Source: Candidatus Pelagibacter sp. IMCC9063
GTDB lineage: Bacteria > Pseudomonadota > Alphaproteobacteria > Pelagibacterales > Pelagibacteraceae
NCBI RefSeq assembly: GCF_000195085.1
Contig: NC_015380.1
Location: 172,001 to 236,000 of the forward strand
Direction: 5' to 3'
Length of the DNA: 64,000 nt
Shown piece by piece: positions 47,853-62,352 of the stretch. A program made the translations under genes and the position numbers. The notes beneath the pieces were generated by a model. The model saw only the letters and a program-made list of their open reading frames with translations. It was not told the origin of the DNA and ran no database searches. Each line of letters opens with the position of its first letter. Positions within the stretch are counted from its first letter, which is position 1.

Positions 47853-48569
47853 TTACTTATCAAAATACTTATCCGTAATTTTATAATGACCAATTAGCGC
47901 ATTTACAGCTTTATTCTCGTCTCGTTTTAACACATGCTTTAATATATCCGCATGTTCTGTATTAACTTGGCGTTTGTGATAGGATTTTTTTTGCTTAATT
48001 AATATAAACCTAAATCTTAAATTTAAATCATAAAGCTGTTCACAGAATTTAACTAAATACTCTGACCGACATCTATTAACTAAAGTCATGTGAAATTTTT
48101 TATGTATCATCTCCCAAGAGTTAGTATTGGATGGATCATACTCTTCCTTCCAGTCTCTTTTTTCCATTCTATGACATAAAACAATCAATTCTTCCTCCCA
48201 TGAATCAATGCTCTTCTTGTTTTGCATGGATTTTCTAAAGGCTATTTCTTCTATCCATAATCTTGTTTTTAAAATTTCTTTAAAATCTTGGATAGTAGAT
48301 TCTGTTGCAACAAATCCTTTTTGGTCTATTTTTTGTACTAAGTTATCTGCAACTAGCCAAGTCAGAGCTTCTCTAATTGGTGTGGATCCAACATTATAAA
48401 TTTCTTTTAATGAATCAATTTTTAACTTTTCTCCTGGCTTTAATTCACCATTGATTAAAGACTTTTTAATTTGGTTATAAATTTGTGCGATATAAGAGGT
48501 GGGTCTCTCTTCAACTTCAGGATGCAAATCTAAAATTTTAGTATTTTTTTTTATAATACTCTGCTTCAT
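47853..48569 (-). CDS. GntR/FadR-type transcriptional regulator
   Basis: 238 residues. N-terminal GntR winged helix (about 22-90; SYIAQIYNQIKKSLINGELKPG, VGSTPIREALTWLVADNLV) and a helical FCD effector domain (about 98-230) with His/Asp/Glu residues typical of metal-dependent ligand binding. Divergent from the tctCBA transporter and upstream of pdxA-rhmD on its strand. It probably senses the sugar acid or an intermediate and controls both units. Confidence 0.87.
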   Translation of the reverse strand: MKQSIIKKNTKILDLHPEVEERPTSYIAQIYNQIKKSLINGELKPGEKLKIDSLKEIYNVGSTPIREALTWLVADNLVQKIDQKGFVATESTIQDFKEILKTRLWIEEIAFRKSMQNKKSIDSWEEELIVLCHRMEKRDWKEEYDPSNTNSWEMIHKKFHMTLVNRCRSEYLVKFCEQLYDLNLRFRFILIKQKKSYHKRQVNTEHADILKHVLKRDENKAVNALIGHYKITDKYFDK

Positions 48570-48607
48570 AAAAATATCGTTTTTTTGTTGACTGTACCTG
48601 TATAAAC

Positions 48608-48632
48608 GTTTTTAATCAAAACAATTAAAAAC
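48608..48632. promoter_or_regulatory. Hyphenated palindrome upstream of tctC
   Basis: GTTTTTAAT (48608-48616) and ATTAAAAAC (48624-48632) are perfect inverted repeats around a 7-base centre, between the divergent GntR gene and tctC. Possible GntR operator or leader hairpin. A strong Shine-Dalgarno (AAGGGGAG) follows before the tctC ATG. Confidence 0.4.
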
Positions 48633-48650
48633 TAAAAAGGGGAGTCAATA

Positions 48651-49625
48651 ATGATAAAGAAAAAACTACTTACAGTAGCGTTAGCAGCTCTAGTAATGGT
48701 TCTTGACATGCCAATTACCGAAATGAATGCTCAAGCTGGTTCGCATAGTAAAAAAGCGATCCAAGCTGTAACTCATGCAGGTTTTGGTGGTGGAACAGAT
48801 GTAACTACTAGAATGATGCTATTAAGAGCTCGAAGAGTTCTGAAACAAGATATGCAATTAGTAAATAAAAAGGGTGGCGGTGGTGCTGTGTCTATGGACT
48901 ACATGATGTCATTACCTGCTGATGGTCAGCATACTTTAACGTGGACAACAGGTCATGCTGTTTCTATGGCTTTAGGAAAAACTAAAGTGAAGCTAAGTGA
49001 TATGCAACCTTTGGCTAGAGGAACAGATGATCCTCAGTTATTTGTTGTTAGTTGCAAATCTAAATTTAAAGACGGAAAAACTTTTGTGAAAATGCAAAAG
49101 AGCAAGTCTTTTTCTTATGGAACAACTCACACAGGTGGAATTGATGACGTAAGTGCAATTGCTTTTACTAAAAAAGGAAAATTAAAAGATCCTAAAATTG
49201 TTGCTTACAAAGGTGTATCTCCAATTAAAACAAACCTAATCAAGGGTGATATTGATGTGGGTGTTTTGAATTTAGGAGAAGCATTAACTGAAATCAACGA
49301 AGGTAAACTTTGTGTTGCTGTTGTATTGGCTAAAAAAAGAATGGCTAAGCTTTCAAAAGTTCCAACAGCCACTGAGCTAGGAATACCTGTTGCACTATCT
49401 ACAGTTCGTGGATTTGTAACTAAAAAAGGTGTTTCGGCTGAACGAGCTAAAGAGCTTGAAAACGGAATGCTAAAAGCTATGGGTCATAACTACTACAAAA
49501 ATTTCTTAACAGAAATTGGTTTAGACCAGACTAGTGTAGTTGGTGCAGACGAGTGGGGAAAGCAAATGGAAGATATGCTTAAAGAAATGACCGCTCAACT
49601 AAAAGCATTAGGTTACTTAAAATAA
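48651..49625 (+). CDS. tctC: Tripartite tricarboxylate transporter receptor (TctC/Bug family)
   Basis: 324 residues with signal peptide (about 1-31). The Bug-type periplasmic receptor pattern is clear: THAGFGGGTDVTTRMM, NKKGGGGAVSMDYMMSLPADGQ, and IPVALSTVRGFVTKKGVS near the C-terminus. Binds a carboxylate ligand and delivers it to TctAB. Genome context (dehydratase, hydrolase, dehydrogenase) suggests a sugar acid as ligand. The gene has the strongest ribosome binding site in this cluster and is followed by a terminator hairpin inside tctB, fitting higher expression of the receptor. Confidence 0.9.
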   Translation: MIKKKLLTVALAALVMVLDMPITEMNAQAGSHSKKAIQAVTHAGFGGGTDVTTRMMLLRARRVLKQDMQLVNKKGGGGAVSMDYMMSLPADGQHTLTWTTGHAVSMALGKTKVKLSDMQPLARGTDDPQLFVVSCKSKFKDGKTFVKMQKSKSFSYGTTHTGGIDDVSAIAFTKKGKLKDPKIVAYKGVSPIKTNLIKGDIDVGVLNLGEALTEINEGKLCVAVVLAKKRMAKLSKVPTATELGIPVALSTVRGFVTKKGVSAERAKELENGMLKAMGHNYYKNFLTEIGLDQTSVVGADEWGKQMEDMLKEMTAQLKALGYLK

Positions 49626-49643
49626 ACCCAACTATATTCTCCC

Positions 49644-50153
49644 ATGAATAAAGTTAAGGTACTTAAAAAGGGCAGATTTAATTCTGCCCTTTTTTCTTTG
49701 AATCCAGAATTTCTTTTATTATTATTTATATATTTATTTTGTATTGCTACTTATACATCTTCTTTGTATTTCAGTGAGGTTCCTCCTATTTTGATGAGAG
49801 GAATTCAACCAGCTACTTTCCCAAAGGGATTGATTGTACTGATCGCTTTTCTAAACTCTATTTTAACTTACCTCTATTTTACAACCAAAACAGCTTCTAA
49901 TAAGGATCTTCCTCGCATATTTTACAAAACTATTTTTGGTCTATTTGTGTTTGTGTTTATCTCTCATTTTATAGACTTGTTTCTTGCTCTAATTATTTTT
50001 GCTTTTTTCATTTCCTATTGGTGGGGAGAAAAAAATATATTATTAATTTTATCTCTTTCTATTATATTTCCAATATTAGTATTTGTCTTATTCGAGGTGG
50101 TACTTGGCCTAAGATTTCCTTCTGGAATACTAACTAACCTGTACTATAACTAA
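49644..50153 (+). CDS. tctB: Tripartite tricarboxylate transporter small membrane subunit (TctB)
   Basis: 169 residues with four predicted helices and the GIQPATFPKGLI segment common in TctB. TctB is the poorly conserved small subunit pairing with TctA. Codons about 7-17 (LKKGRFNSALF) are themselves the arms of a strong hairpin with a T-run. No other good start lies between the hairpin and the first helix. The next gene, tctA, begins 6 bp after the stop. Confidence 0.85.
   Translation: MNKVKVLKKGRFNSALFSLNPEFLLLLFIYLFCIATYTSSLYFSEVPPILMRGIQPATFPKGLIVLIAFLNSILTYLYFTTKTASNKDLPRIFYKTIFGLFVFVFISHFIDLFLALIIFAFFISYWWGEKNILLILSLSIIFPILVFVLFEVVLGLRFPSGILTNLYYN
49664..49695 (+). terminator. Intrinsic terminator/attenuator inside the tctB 5' coding region
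   Basis: AAAAGGGCAGA and TCTGCCCTTTT (stem about 11 bp, 6-base loop) followed by further T residues form a classic rho-independent terminator. It lies 40 bp after the tctC stop but within codons 7-17 of tctB. Confidence 0.8.
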
Positions 50154-50159
50154 CTACTT

Positions 50160-51656
50160 ATGACTGAAAACTTTCTTTACATGCTTGCGCCTATAATGAA
50201 TGGTAAAATATTTTTAATTTTACTTTTAGGAACATTATTTGGTTTGATTTTAGGAGTTTTACCAGGCCTGGGTCCTACTACCGGTGGTGCATTAATATTA
50301 CCTTTTACTATGACTCTAGAACCTCTTTCAGCAATTATTTTACTCACTTCTATTTATTGTGCAGGAACATATGGTGGAGCTATTACTGCTATATTAATTA
50401 ATACTCCCGGCACTCCTGCTGCTGCTGCAACATGCTTAGATGGATATCCACTCGCACAAAAGGGAGAGGCTGCAAGAGCTTTGGGTATGGCAACTTTTGG
50501 CAGTGCCTTTGGAGGAATTTTTAGTGTGATAGTGCTAGTATTGTTTGCTCCAATTTTAGCAAATATTGCTTATGAATTTGGTCAACCTGAATATTTTGCC
50601 TTAGCTATTTTTGGCCTAACTATGCTGGCCTCCATTGGAGAAGGAAGCCCGGTTAAAAATTTACTAGCAGGTGCTTTTGGTATTTTGTTATCAACTGTTG
50701 GAAAAGACATTATGACCTCCGTTGACAGATTCACTTTTGGGGTTGGTCAATTGACGGAAGGGATTGGTTTTATTCCAGTCGTGGTTGGTCTTTTTGCAAT
50801 AAGTGAGATGCTAGTTCAGTCAACATTAACTAATCAAATTTTTAAAAGAGTTGCGATGAAGGCTGTAAAACTTCCTACTAAAGAAGATTTTAAATATTGT
50901 TTTAAAACAATTTTACGTTCTTCTGGAATTGGTTCGTTTATTGGAATCTTGCCAGCAGAGGGTGGAACAGTTGCTTCATTGATTGGATATTCAGAAGCTA
51001 AAAGATGGTCTAAGAATCCAAGCAAATTCGGCAAAGGTGCAATCGATGGAATTGCAGGTGCAGAAACTGCTAATAATGCAGCGACTGGCGGAGCGATGGT
51101 CCCTACTCTTGCCTTAGGAATTCCAGGCAGCGCAACGACAGCGGTTATTTTAACAGGAATGATTATTCATGGATTAAGACCGGGTCCAGATCTATTTAAA
51201 GAGCAGCCAGAGTTTTTGTATGGGATTTTCGGAGCAATGTTTTTTGCAAATATTTTATTTTTTATTATGGGATTTTTCGGAGCAAAGCTATTTGCAAGAA
51301 TTACATTAATTCCAAGTAGATTGTTATGGCCCATGATTTTTGTACTTTCTGTATGTGGTACCTACTCTCTCAATCAATCTTTTTCCGATGTATTGCTTAT
51401 GATTATTTTTGGAGTCATTGGATTTGTTTTAAGAAAATTTGGTTTTTCAGTAGTTCCTATAATCATTGGTTTAATTTTAGGGCAACTAGTTGAACTTACA
51501 TTGAGACAATCTTTAGTTATTTTTGATGGAAACTATTTATTATTTTTTACAAGACCTATTGTAGTTGCGTTCTTTGTACTATCTGTAATTGCCCTAACTT
51601 TTCCATATCTAAAAAAAAAGAAACATACCTATTTTAAAAACAAGAAAACAAACTAA
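50160..51656 (+). CDS. tctA: Tripartite tricarboxylate transporter large membrane subunit (TctA)
   Basis: 498 residues, about 12 helices. Family motifs GVLPGLGPTTGGALILPF, CAGTYGGAITAILINTPGT and GIAGAETANNAATGGAMVPTL-like repeat halves identify TctA. It is the ion-coupled channel component. The C-terminus is Lys-rich (LKKKKHTYFKNKK). Shine-Dalgarno for the next gene (AAGGAG) overlaps just after its stop, linking transport and catabolism in one transcript. Confidence 0.93.
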   Translation: MTENFLYMLAPIMNGKIFLILLLGTLFGLILGVLPGLGPTTGGALILPFTMTLEPLSAIILLTSIYCAGTYGGAITAILINTPGTPAAAATCLDGYPLAQKGEAARALGMATFGSAFGGIFSVIVLVLFAPILANIAYEFGQPEYFALAIFGLTMLASIGEGSPVKNLLAGAFGILLSTVGKDIMTSVDRFTFGVGQLTEGIGFIPVVVGLFAISEMLVQSTLTNQIFKRVAMKAVKLPTKEDFKYCFKTILRSSGIGSFIGILPAEGGTVASLIGYSEAKRWSKNPSKFGKGAIDGIAGAETANNAATGGAMVPTLALGIPGSATTAVILTGMIIHGLRPGPDLFKEQPEFLYGIFGAMFFANILFFIMGFFGAKLFARITLIPSRLLWPMIFVLSVCGTYSLNQSFSDVLLMIIFGVIGFVLRKFGFSVVPIIIGLILGQLVELTLRQSLVIFDGNYLLFFTRPIVVAFFVLSVIALTFPYLKKKKHTYFKNKKTN

Positions 51657-54154: not shown

Positions 54155-55422
54155 AATTTAAACGGTATATATAATGCAATTTGTGGAAATAAATAAACTA
54201 AAAAAACTGCGAATAACATAATAATAACGAAAGGAATAACACCCTTTGCAATTTCAGACATTTTTGCATCACATATTGCCTGTAGAACATAAATATTCAG
54301 TCCTACTGGCGGCGTGATCAACGCGCACTCGATCATTAAAGTAAAAATAATTCCAAACCAAATTAAATCAATGTTCATTGCAGCAATAGAAATTGCAAAA
54401 ATAGGCATCATGATTAAAATCAAAGACAGGGTCTCCATTATAAAACCAAGAATAAGCAACGTAATACAAACTACTAATATAAACATCCCCTGTTCGCTTA
54501 TATTGCTTACAATGATTGCAGATAGATCCTGAGGAATTCGATATAGAGATATTGCCTTACCAAAAATTTTAGCTCCGGCTATAATAATAAATATTGTAAC
54601 TGTTGTTTTCATAGTCTCGAGACCAGCTTCAATAAATCCCTTAAGGTCTAATCTTTTTTTAACAACCACATATATAAATGAAATTAAAAAACCTATACCA
54701 CCCGCTTCTGTTGGGGTATAGATCCCAGCGTAAATTCCCCCAAGCATTATGAAAGCCATTAAAAGTATTGGAAGTCCTTTTTTGGTATATTCTATTTTTT
54801 CCTCTCGAGTAGTTGTAACGTTAGTAACTTCCCTATTAAAAAAAATTACATATAAAACTGAAAATAATATGAAGAGTAGTGCCAACAATATTCCTGGACC
54901 GATACCTGCTAAAAACATACTCAATACCGATTCCTCGACTACAAAAGCATAAACAATCATTGGTATCGAAGGAGGAATTAAAATCCCCAGTGTTCCACCA
55001 GCAGCTAAAATACCTAAGCAAAAATTTTTATGATATCCCCTTTTAATCATTGCAGGATAAGCAACGGTTGAAATAGTTGCGGCAGTAGCTACAGAAGAAC
55101 CGGAAATAGCTGCAAAAATACTACAAGAAAGAATAGTGGCAATTGCCAAACCTCCAGGAAAATTTCCTACCCAAGCTTGTGCAAAACCAAATAGATCGTC
55201 TCCAACTCCAGCTTTTAATAGGATATTTGACATCATTAGAAACATGGGAACGGCAAGAAGTATAAAATTGTCACCTACACTATAAAATGTTTGTGGAACC
55301 ATTAATGGAGAGATATCTCCCAGTAACATTAATATTAGCCCTATAGATCCCAGTCCAAAAGCAATCGGAACACTTAAGAACAAAATTAAAAATAGTGAAA
55401 AAATAATTAGTGCAGTAGTCAT
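54151..55422 (-). CDS. dctM: TRAP transporter large permease DctM
   Basis: 423 residues, about 12 helices. Family motifs include LLAVPMFLMMSNILLKAG, AISGSSVATAATISTVAYPAM, LGILIPPSIPMIVYA and ITPPVGLNIYVLQA. Sodium-coupled permease of a TRAP system. The start overlaps the dctQ stop by one base and the end overlaps the ICL-family gene. Confidence 0.93.
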   Translation of the reverse strand: MTTALIIFSLFLILFLSVPIAFGLGSIGLILMLLGDISPLMVPQTFYSVGDNFILLAVPMFLMMSNILLKAGVGDDLFGFAQAWVGNFPGGLAIATILSCSIFAAISGSSVATAATISTVAYPAMIKRGYHKNFCLGILAAGGTLGILIPPSIPMIVYAFVVEESVLSMFLAGIGPGILLALLFILFSVLYVIFFNREVTNVTTTREEKIEYTKKGLPILLMAFIMLGGIYAGIYTPTEAGGIGFLISFIYVVVKKRLDLKGFIEAGLETMKTTVTIFIIIAGAKIFGKAISLYRIPQDLSAIIVSNISEQGMFILVVCITLLILGFIMETLSLILIMMPIFAISIAAMNIDLIWFGIIFTLMIECALITPPVGLNIYVLQAICDAKMSEIAKGVIPFVIIMLFAVFLVYLFPQIALYIPFKL

Positions 55423-55895
55423 TATTTTATAAATAACCTTATCTTTCTAACAAACTCTATTGAGGCTCTAATAACTAATAAAAAAAAGCAGAGCGGGATT
55501 GCAAGCTCAGTTAAAAAAGATGGAACATCTAAAATTGTTGAACTTGTTCTACCTACTTTTAAAGAATCGTAGGCAATGAGCCATCCATAGTAAACAACAA
55601 AGGAACTAAAGAACAAAATAAAAAGCATTGATATGAAGTCTAGTATTCTTTTTCCAGTTTCCCCGAGACGGTCGTAGATGACCGTAATTCTAATAAAATC
55701 ATTTTTATGAAAAGAATACGTAAGAGCTAAATAGGTGGCCCAAATTTGTAAAAACCTAGATATTTCATTTACCCATATTGTAGGAGAGTTAAAAATATAG
55801 CGAGATATAACTTCAAACGAGACTATAAAACCTATCATGATAAATAAGCCTGCAGATAGGTAACCTGAATATTTTATAATTTTTTCTAAGTTCAT
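55422..55895 (-). CDS. dctQ: TRAP transporter small permease DctQ
   Basis: 157 residues with four helices; FEVISRYIFNSPTIWVNEISRFLQIWATYLA carries the DctQ signature (split here by description only: R-Y-I-F, then W-V-N-E). Pairs with DctM. Separated from dctP by a 59-bp gap that holds a hairpin. Confidence 0.9.
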   Translation of the reverse strand: MNLEKIIKYSGYLSAGLFIMIGFIVSFEVISRYIFNSPTIWVNEISRFLQIWATYLALTYSFHKNDFIRITVIYDRLGETGKRILDFISMLFILFFSSFVVYYGWLIAYDSLKVGRTSSTILDVPSFLTELAIPLCFFLLVIRASIEFVRKIRLFIK

Positions 55896-55906
55896 TTTAA
55901 ATACAA

Positions 55907-55941
55907 CAAGCCCTACGCTATTAATAATAACGCAGGGCTTG
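55907..55941 (-). terminator. Intercistronic hairpin between dctP and dctQ
   Basis: CAAGCCCT (55907-55914) pairs with AGGGCTTG (55934-55941); two further GC pairs extend the stem past one mismatch. No strong T-run follows on the minus strand, so it may act as a partial terminator or 3' stabiliser of dctP mRNA. Confidence 0.6.
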
Positions 55942-55954
55942 AATAGATTTTATA

Positions 55955-56944
55955 TTAAAGGTTGTTAGCTGCTGTAACTAACTTATCTCCAACTCCACCT
56001 TTTCCACCAGTTCTTTTGATGTAATCAGTGATTACTGAAGAAGAAGCTTTTTTTAACGCTTTAAGTTCAGCACCAGATAATTTTACGATCTTCATTCCAT
56101 TATCTTTTGCTTCCTTATAAGCTCTGGCTTCTATTCCAGACATGTCATCTCTAACTGCTTTTTCTGCAACTTTTGATGCTTCGGTTACTGCTTTTCTTTG
56201 TTTCATAGTCAGTGAATTCAACCACTTTTTATTAGCAACAAGAACAAATTCAATATCACCGTGATTAGTTACTGTTAGAGTATCCATCACTTGATAAAGT
56301 TTTCTAGATTTAACTCCAGATACACCTGTCATTCCTGCATCCACAGTTCCTCTTTGGTAAGCTAAATATTGCTCAGAACCTGAAATTAAGGCAGGCTTAG
56401 CTCCAAGAGAGCTAACAAATGCACCTAGTGTTTTTCCAAATACTCTTATTTTTTTATTTTTAAAAGCAGCCGGAGTGTTCATCGGTGTTCCGTTAGATAA
56501 CATCACAGCAGAACCATATGCCTGATAGTATAAAGGCACAGCTCCTGATTTTGAAATTGCTGGGTCTAACACTTGTCTAATTTTAGATCCAGATTTAGTT
56601 GCTTTTCTAATTTTCTTTTCTGAATCAAATAAGAATGGCAAATAAAAAACATCTACTTCAGGGTTTGTACCTGCAAACCTTGTAAGTGACGCCACGCCTG
56701 CCTCAATTGCCCCTGAGCCTACAGCTTGCGGAACTTCCTTATCTTTATAAAGTTGAGCAGAATCGTAGATTTCAACTTTGATATCTGATCGTTTCTCCAA
56801 TTCTTTCTTAAAAACCAAAAGGTTTTGACCTAAATGGGCTTTTAAAGGAAGTTGAAGAGTAATTCTCATTTTAGTTTCTGCAAAAACTGCAGATGTAAAC
56901 AAAACTAAAACAGAAGCTAATACTAATTGTTTAATTTTTTTCAT
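55955..56944 (-). CDS. dctP: TRAP transporter solute receptor DctP
   Basis: 329 residues with signal peptide (about 1-22). DctP pattern: KMRITLQLPLKAHLGQNL, VPQAVGSGAIEAGVASL, and the central AYQRGTVDAGMTGVSG that includes the residues near the ligand carboxylate site. Ligand not identifiable from sequence. First gene of the dctPQM-ICL operon, 62 bp after aceE on the same strand. Confidence 0.9.
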   Translation of the reverse strand: MKKIKQLVLASVLVLFTSAVFAETKMRITLQLPLKAHLGQNLLVFKKELEKRSDIKVEIYDSAQLYKDKEVPQAVGSGAIEAGVASLTRFAGTNPEVDVFYLPFLFDSEKKIRKATKSGSKIRQVLDPAISKSGAVPLYYQAYGSAVMLSNGTPMNTPAAFKNKKIRVFGKTLGAFVSSLGAKPALISGSEQYLAYQRGTVDAGMTGVSGVKSRKLYQVMDTLTVTNHGDIEFVLVANKKWLNSLTMKQRKAVTEASKVAEKAVRDDMSGIEARAYKEAKDNGMKIVKLSGAELKALKKASSSVITDYIKRTGGKGGVGDKLVTAANNL

Positions 56945-60693: not shown

Positions 60694-60930
60694 TTAAATT
60701 TTACCTAGTTTAAGGTTAAATTCATTTGCAATCATAAGAAGTTTTTTTCCTTGTTCCGTAAGTTCTATTCCTCGAATATCTCTTTTAAATACTCTAAATC
60801 CAATTTTTTTTTCTAATTGGATAACATCTCGGCTTAAGGTGGATTGTGATTTGCCAATTATTTGTGCAGCGGCTGTGAAACTTTTATTACCGCAAATTTT
60901 AGCAAAAACTTGTATTCTTCTCCAGTCCAT
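60694..60930 (-). CDS. LysR-type helix-turn-helix protein lacking the effector domain
   Basis: 78 residues covering only the LysR DNA-binding domain: WRRIQVFAKICGNKSFTAAA, then SQSTLSRDVIQLEKKIGFRVF and LTEQGKKLL. Full LysR proteins are about 300 residues; here the frame stops and the EamA gene ends only 60 bp further on, so no effector domain is left. Either a stand-alone regulator or a remnant. It lies between EamA and amt. Confidence 0.75.
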   Translation of the reverse strand: MDWRRIQVFAKICGNKSFTAAAQIIGKSQSTLSRDVIQLEKKIGFRVFKRDIRGIELTEQGKKLLMIANEFNLKLGKI

Positions 60931-61068: not shown

Positions 61069-62352
61069 TTAGTCTCGGATAGCGTATGCTCGTACTCCGA
61101 TTTCAGAAACATCTGTTCCTTTTTTCTGAGCTTCATCACTAATTCTGATGCCTACCGTAGCTTTTAAGATAGACCAGACGATCATTGATGCGACAAACAT
61201 AAACACTACTACTGAGAAAGTTCCTAAGAACTGAGTAGCAAATGATGTGTCTTTATTGGTAATTGGTACTGCTAAAGTTCCCCAAATTCCTGCGAATAAG
61301 TGAACTGGAATAGCTCCCACAACATCATCGATTTTTAGTTTTTCAAGCAATGATGTACCAGCCACAACTACTGTTGCACCGATACCACCGATACAAATAG
61401 CTGCAATAGGAGATGGTGCTAATGGTTCTGCAGTAATTGCAACTAAACCACCTAATGCTCCATTAAGCATCATGACGACATCAGTTTTTCCACCAACAAA
61501 TCTTGTGATTAATGCATTTACCAACACTCCAGCTGCTGCTGCTAAGTTAGTGTTGATAAAAATAGTAGATATTGCAGAGGCATCGGCAAACGTTCCGAGT
61601 GCCAACTGAGATCCACCATTAAAACCAAACCAACCAAACCAAAGAACAAAAGTTCCAAGGGTTGCTAGAGGAATCGAAGACGCCGCAAATGGGAGAAGAT
61701 TTTTTCCACTGGTAAATCGTCCCACTCTTGGTCCTAAAATGATTGCACCTGCAAGAGCTGCTGCTCCACCTGCTGCATGAACTAAAGTTGAACCTGCAAA
61801 ATCTGAGAATCCTTTTGCAGCTAACCATCCTCCGCCCCACTGCCATCCCATTTCAATTGGGTACAAAACCCCAGTTAAAATAGCAACGAACAAAAAGAAA
61901 GGCCAAATTTTTATTCTTTCAGCTAAAGTTCCAGATACAATTGATGCAGTTGTTGCAGCAAATACCATTTGGAAATACCAGTCAGATCCTGCTGCATAAG
62001 TATCTTTTGCAAAGTCTGTTCCGTCTGACCAGGAAGAGAAGCTACCTATAAAACCACCTTCAGAAATTCCATAAGCTACATTATATCCACAAAGCCAAAA
62101 CATAATTCCAGCGATAGAATATAAACCGATATTTTTTGCAGCAATCGAGGAAACACTCTTCGATGTTACAAGTCCGCATTCTAACATGGCAAATCCTGGC
62201 GCCATAAACATTACTAGAAAGCCACAAATTAAAAACAATAACGTATTAAATACGAATTGAGTTTCTGCATTTACTGTTGATTCAGCTGCAAAAGATGGAC
62301 TTACAAAAAGTAACGAAAAAATTGCTACAAGCAATAAATTTTTTATTTTCAT
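61069..62352 (-). CDS. amt: Ammonium transporter Amt
   Basis: 427 residues with signal peptide (about 1-22) and 11 helices. The twin pore histidines are visible in TLVHAAGGAAALAGA and IPVHLFAGIWGT, and FMAPGFAMLECG and GFNGGSQLALG are family motifs. Conducts ammonium under nitrogen limitation. Usually paired with glnK; none is adjacent here. The 267-bp leader contains inverted repeats that may be regulatory. Confidence 0.95.
   Translation of the reverse strand: MKIKNLLLVAIFSLLFVSPSFAAESTVNAETQFVFNTLLFLICGFLVMFMAPGFAMLECGLVTSKSVSSIAAKNIGLYSIAGIMFWLCGYNVAYGISEGGFIGSFSSWSDGTDFAKDTYAAGSDWYFQMVFAATTASIVSGTLAERIKIWPFFLFVAILTGVLYPIEMGWQWGGGWLAAKGFSDFAGSTLVHAAGGAAALAGAIILGPRVGRFTSGKNLLPFAASSIPLATLGTFVLWFGWFGFNGGSQLALGTFADASAISTIFINTNLAAAAGVLVNALITRFVGGKTDVVMMLNGALGGLVAITAEPLAPSPIAAICIGGIGATVVVAGTSLLEKLKIDDVVGAIPVHLFAGIWGTLAVPITNKDTSFATQFLGTFSVVVFMFVASMIVWSILKATVGIRISDEAQKKGTDVSEIGVRAYAIRD

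Follow-up and report, generated by a model that had tools for sequence, protein, structure and literature searches.

Where does the message of the receptor gene end in the tctCBA operon of Candidatus Pelagibacter sp. IMCC9063, and what might be gained by placing a terminator-like hairpin inside the gene that follows? SAR11 cells rely on abundant periplasmic receptors, one of which is the product of tctC. We analyzed a 64,000-nt stretch of contig NC_015380.1, referred to here as the window, in which the operon and its neighbor were assigned with Pfam as follows.

47853 to 48569, divergent to tctC: gene for a GntR/FCD regulator
48651 to 49625, plus strand: tctC, periplasmic receptor of a TTT transporter (PF03401, E 3.5e-17)
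49644 to 50153, plus strand: tctB, small membrane subunit (PF07331, E 8.8e-11, residues 27-159)
50160 to 51656, plus strand: tctA, large membrane subunit (PF01970, E 1.6e-157)

The tctC stop is separated from the tctB ATG at 49644 by 18 nt. Among the best 80 of 267 named matches, the TctB nearest to that of the window belonged to a Pelagibacteraceae MAG (95% identity, L100), followed by that of HIMB114 (57%, L101). Comparison of 49500-49800 with a phage collection gave no match, and an Rfam search over 48500-50300 returned 13 sub-threshold matches and none above the gathering score. The junction between tctC and tctB contained three features.

49626 to 49660, plus strand: SL1, an interrupted hairpin around the tctB start codon (window fold of -8.4 kcal/mol, z -3.15)
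49665 to 49694, plus strand: SL2, a terminator-type stem-loop, AAAAAGGGCAGA-TTTAAT-TCTGCCCTTTTT, recognized from sequence, fold, and conservation with compensatory changes
49690 to 49695, plus strand: the T-run of SL2, seen in the sequence and partly paired with an upstream A-run

The SL2 stem is 12 bp long, with arms AAAAAGGGCAGA and TCTGCCCTTTTT around the loop TTTAAT. It is GC-rich, and its U-rich 3′ tract pairs with sequence on the 5′ side (AAAAAGGGCAGA/TCTGCCCTTTTTT). The first-pass annotation had assigned the hairpin to tctB codons 7 to 17, a position right to within one codon, as the computed stem occupies codons 8 to 17. Folding of 49626-49700 gave -26.5 kcal/mol, whereas shuffles averaged -9.3 (z = -6.95) and 0 of 200 were as low; the SL2 stem by itself gave -18.1 kcal/mol (z -5.3). 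Stems were also scored as the number of pairs plus twice the number of G-C pairs; both this score and the threshold of 20 were our own choice. Scores of at least 20 were found in 1 of 558 random 100-mers drawn inside ORFs of the window and at 3 of its 36 co-directional junctions with gaps below 200 bp, namely those after tctC, dctP, and amtB. SL2 is not a chance structure. The earlier claim that a strong terminator-type hairpin stands at the end of tctC, encoded by the first tctB codons, was borne out by this fold, by the 12-bp stem, and by the T-run. A consensus terminator scan of the window did not list SL2, probably because its stem rule counts the T-run as belonging to the A-U portion of the stem. 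At the amtB junction, the ammonium transporter gene (61069-62352, minus strand) is directly followed by a 13-bp hairpin without a T-run, and this hairpin precedes a short ORF with a LysR-type HTH domain (60694-60930).

Conservation of the hairpin in relatives had been set beforehand as a test. A search of 397 genomes of the family yielded 68 orthologous matches, of which 66 were read, a frameshifted match (G241) and one at a contig edge (G181) being left out. One further locus, L072, ranked as a main match by score, but it is a member of a paralogous group and was counted there. A second set comprised the best 80 of the 267 named matches. The two sets overlap, and their union comprises 84 distinct tctC-tctB junctions, all from Pelagibacteraceae (SAR11), mutually related and not independent. 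An SL2-type hairpin was kept in all 84. HIMB114 (L101), a cultured strain of SAR11 subclade IIIa, shares this element. Each of the 66 readable orthologous junctions carries a hairpin of 10-17 bp, with a T-run after it or at its end, within an open tctB frame. In the set of the best 80 of 267 named loci, all 80 have a stem score of at least 20 inside tctB and a T-run of at least 6 T in 8.

We then asked how the stem varies. In an alignment of 48 distinct junctions, double-sided changes were present at 6 of the 14 pairs of the SL2 stem. Over the whole structure in these 48 junctions, SL1 included, we counted 18 double-sided cells, where shuffles gave 1.9, and pairing held in 97% of cells as against 45-60% when the structure was slid along the alignment. 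The stem is translated as KGRFNSALF in the clade of the window and as KRANKSLPFF in other clades, the same RNA read in another frame. This difference in frame, together with the compensatory changes, indicates that the RNA and not the peptide is under selection, so that the earlier prediction of a conserved hairpin held, with selection acting at the nucleotide level. Beyond the family, TctB loci from other Alphaproteobacteria numbered 30, of which 25 had an upstream ORF; 7 of these 25 junctions had a strong, shuffle-significant hairpin, and in 2 of the 25 (L233 and L250) the hairpin lies inside the next frame. Several of the upstream ORFs, in GC-rich DNA, are probably spurious, and we therefore drew no conclusion from the 7 of 25.

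An embedded terminator could be an artefact of annotation. Were the true tctB start to lie after SL2, for example at the in-frame TTG at 49698, SL2 would be an ordinary intergenic terminator; the PF07331 match, which begins only at residue 27 and thus 3′ of the hairpin-coded part of tctB, fits such a start. That TTG is, however, TTA in L003, a 95%-identical relative, and in 74 of the 84 junctions there is no in-frame start within about 60 nt past the hairpin (10 have an ATG, GTG, or TTG), whereas the frame is open across the hairpin in all 84. The TTA in L003 and the scarcity of starts in relatives make the upstream ATG at 49644 very likely the real start, and a start beyond SL2 highly improbable. 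The tctB start codon lies 5′ of the SL2 stem in 84 of 84 junctions, at a distance of 24-26 nt in 83 of them; the spacing from the tctC stop to the stem ranges from 37 to 51 nt. No tctB start is preceded by a Shine-Dalgarno-like sequence (0 of 84), but this was given no weight, since such sequences are present at only 11 of 52 ORFs in the window. In L028 and L119 the tctB frame begins at the ATG within AATGTAC and not at the usual ATG, apparently with one extra base in the A-run.

We also determined whether other receptor genes of this genome are followed by comparable structures. A strong hairpin was present at 10 of 11 receptor-permease junctions: 4 of 4 in TRAP, 4 of 4 in TTT, and 2 of 3 in ABC operons. 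Of the remaining close co-directional junctions of the window, 1 of 34 had one (Fisher p 4e-8). Four ABC-type receptors were found via two Pfam families. In two of them a hairpin precedes the permease gene, L098 lacks one, and L097 is not immediately followed by a permease. The single exception in the genome, L098, is an SBP_bac_3 receptor gene with no hairpin before the next permease-like gene. The idea put forward at the outset, that the receptor is kept in excess, fits these 10 of 11 junctions. The hairpin is intergenic in 8 of the 10 and lies inside the next gene in only 2, both TTT, which indicates that the pattern does not depend on overlap with coding sequence. One of the intergenic hairpins lies in the window itself.

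55907 to 55941, minus strand: hairpin of a TRAP operon with a 16-bp stem, between dctP (55955-56944) and dctQ (55422-55895)

The pattern extends to relatives. DctP had more than 100 matches in the family, and the 30 with loci were examined; 27 of these 30 distinct TRAP junctions, from 30 family genomes, scored at least 20, with the hairpin nearly always before the next gene, and 3 scored below 20. Several TRAP hairpins have no strong T-run. At paralogous TTT junctions, a hairpin follows tctC in 21 of 21 loci, 14 inside tctB and 7 before its ATG. Most of these have no clear T-run (groups of L002, L008, L009, L010, and L072), which suggests mRNA protection rather than termination there.

The region directly upstream of SL2 is also constrained. 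In most relatives SL1 is a stem of 7-9 bp, GTACATT/AATGTAC, with the ATG in its loop. In 79 of the 84 distinct junctions, a GTAC core 5′ of the tctB ATG has a potential pairing partner, a second GTAC core, in codons 4-5. The valine codon in the 3′ arm is GTA in 78 of 78 cases; in the rest of tctB, 301 of 954 valine codons are GTA. The codon that follows this valine starts with C in every case, whether the residue is Q, R, H, or L. When each junction was tested singly for a perfect stem, p was below 0.05 in 39 of 50 distinct junctions, a set that includes one paralogue. In the window SL1 was not significant by this test (p 0.6), and among the paralogous junctions 0 of 13 were. Divergent relatives carry other stems in its place, CGTGC/GCACG in L011 (significant alone) and TACTAT/ATAGTA in L004 (not significant alone), and L050 shows a compensatory change. 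The alignment count of 48 distinct junctions contained no double-sided change within SL1, so the covariation evidence for this hairpin is thin. A competing hairpin, with GTACA as part of the loop and the start codon paired (fold of L016, 1463-1505), was not adopted because it is found in a minority of junctions: its stem reaches at least 5 bp in 21 of 79 GTACA-holding junctions and 3 bp or less in 57.

Since SL1 is an inverted repeat and a GntR-type gene lies divergent to tctC, SL1 might be a DNA operator for such a regulator, with SL2 as a plain terminator. The spacing between the GTAC cores, however, varies from 15 to 21 nt. When 23 genomes were scanned for the SL1 pattern, 20 carried it, and in 19 of these 20 it occurred once, at tctB; the remaining one had one extra site. 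The variable spacing and the near-single occurrence per genome rule out an operator shared by a regulon, and an operator function of any such kind appears very unlikely.

SL1 and SL2 could instead form a translation-coupled attenuator, in which ribosomes finishing tctC open SL1, restart on tctB, and block SL2, so that tctBA is transcribed, and in which transcription otherwise stops. Such coupling would fit the position of the start codon, always 5′ of the stem and at near-constant distance while the stop-to-stem spacing varies, as well as the GTAC core, the invariant GTA, and the C-initial codon of SL1, and the stems that are altered yet present in L011 and L004 or compensated in L050. The constant spacing may, however, merely reflect the rarity of indels in coding sequence. 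SL1 is weak in the window and absent in the 13 paralogous junctions; the minimum-energy folds are two independent hairpins, with no antiterminator pairing in them; and, to act in time, a ribosome would need to start at 49644 within the brief interval left until RNA polymerase moves past 49695. Eight of the 10 receptor hairpins in the genome and 7 of the 21 paralogous TTT hairpins lie outside the membrane-subunit gene, so in general the pattern operates without coupling. The proposal that reading into tctBA requires ribosomes on tctB to open the stem was therefore not supported, and we consider an attenuator unlikely. Ribosome-mediated transcription attenuation, of which bmrB-bmrCD is reportedly an example and the trp leader the type, likewise has a terminator over a translated stretch, where ribosome position could matter. 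Unlike the trp leader type, the junction studied here has no leader peptide, the frame overlapping the hairpin is that of the membrane-subunit gene, and the minimum-energy folds are without an antiterminator. That the two hairpins make up one conserved SAR11 switch, in which SL1 senses ribosomes finishing tctC and SL2 converts this into tctBA output, is quite doubtful; if it were so, the receptor-to-channel ratio would follow the translation state of the cell.

SL2 might also act purely as a protector of the 3′ end, blocking 3′-5′ exonucleases and not polymerase, so that the tctC part of the message outlives tctBA. The malE-malF type of protective intercistronic hairpin is the model (Newbury 1987, as cited in Dar and Sorek 2018, PMC5927463), and the accessible text of the 2018 study documents hairpins that stabilize the mRNA of E. 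coli SBP genes. SL2 resembles these in that it is stable and closes off the 3′ side of the receptor segment within a polycistronic mRNA, and the receptor hairpins that have no T-run, after paralogous tctC (groups of L002, L008, and L072) and after dctP genes, favor protection as well. Yet orthologues keep the long T-run (80 of 80 among the best 80 of 267 named loci), which protection alone would not need. SL2 differs in this from the malE-malF type, as intrinsic terminator motifs were excluded from the 2018 study according to the accessible text (PMC5927463). We judge pure protection to be improbable.

The most economical reading, and the one we favor as likely, is that SL2 is a leaky intrinsic terminator that ends tctC and also forms the protective 3′ end of a short tctC mRNA, leaving the receptor in excess. 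From the structure of SL2, its conservation, the selection at the nucleotide level, and the association with receptor genes, we infer termination, a partial efficiency, and mRNA protection. Most transcripts would end at about 49695, giving an abundant and stable receptor mRNA. A minority would read through to yield the tctCBA mRNA for the membrane subunits, and receptor would accumulate in excess over TctB and TctA. Because tctB begins 5′ of SL2, SL2 itself forms the first tctB codons on the read-through mRNA and would be translated. Judged by sequence, the hairpin probably serves to make much more receptor than membrane channel. The ABC junction of L098, which has no hairpin, and the 3 of 30 TRAP junctions that score below 20 stand against this explanation. 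The T-run-poor hairpins of the paralogous TTT operons and of several TRAP operons speak against termination as the function common to all; mRNA protection may be that function.

Comparable elements have been described. Stem-loops after the SBP genes of ABC importer operons cause premature termination, as measurements in Clostridia showed and as was inferred for E. coli (Wu et al. 2022, PMC9045158, in its accessible text). Like SL2, they are described there as lying right after a 5′ receptor gene, the first in its transporter operon, with a GC-rich stem, a U-tract paired to an A-run, and an expected excess of receptor. That work, as far as its accessible text goes, concerns ABC operons and measured termination, whereas ours concerns TTT and TRAP operons of SAR11, for which termination is predicted from sequence; and the terminators it describes are intergenic, whereas SL2 lies among the tctB codons, behind a start-codon hairpin. 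The intergenic position appears in that text as a descriptive rather than a functional trait (PMC9045158). SL2 would accordingly be of a known kind, the terminator internal to an operon behind its receptor gene as in ABC operons, and its place within the downstream tctB codons is what appears to set it apart. RNA 3′ ends inside ORFs are known in E. coli, as stated in the accessible text of PMC7815308. Neither the tctC-tctB element nor any receptor hairpin of SAR11 was described in the literature that we searched. The motifs in the accessible text of a SAR11 RNA survey are others (PMC2704228), and a SAR11 transcriptome places several receptor genes among the most transcribed, with no 3′ ends given in its accessible text (PMC5069720).

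Terminator scans limited to intergenic DNA can miss coding-embedded elements such as SL2. Its conservation suggests that a terminator can stay intact under two constraints at once, RNA folding and protein coding. Exact sites are now given for measuring transporter stoichiometry in SAR11. Together these data suggest that most receptor-permease boundaries in the genome bear a hairpin through which the receptor-to-channel ratio could be set with very little DNA.
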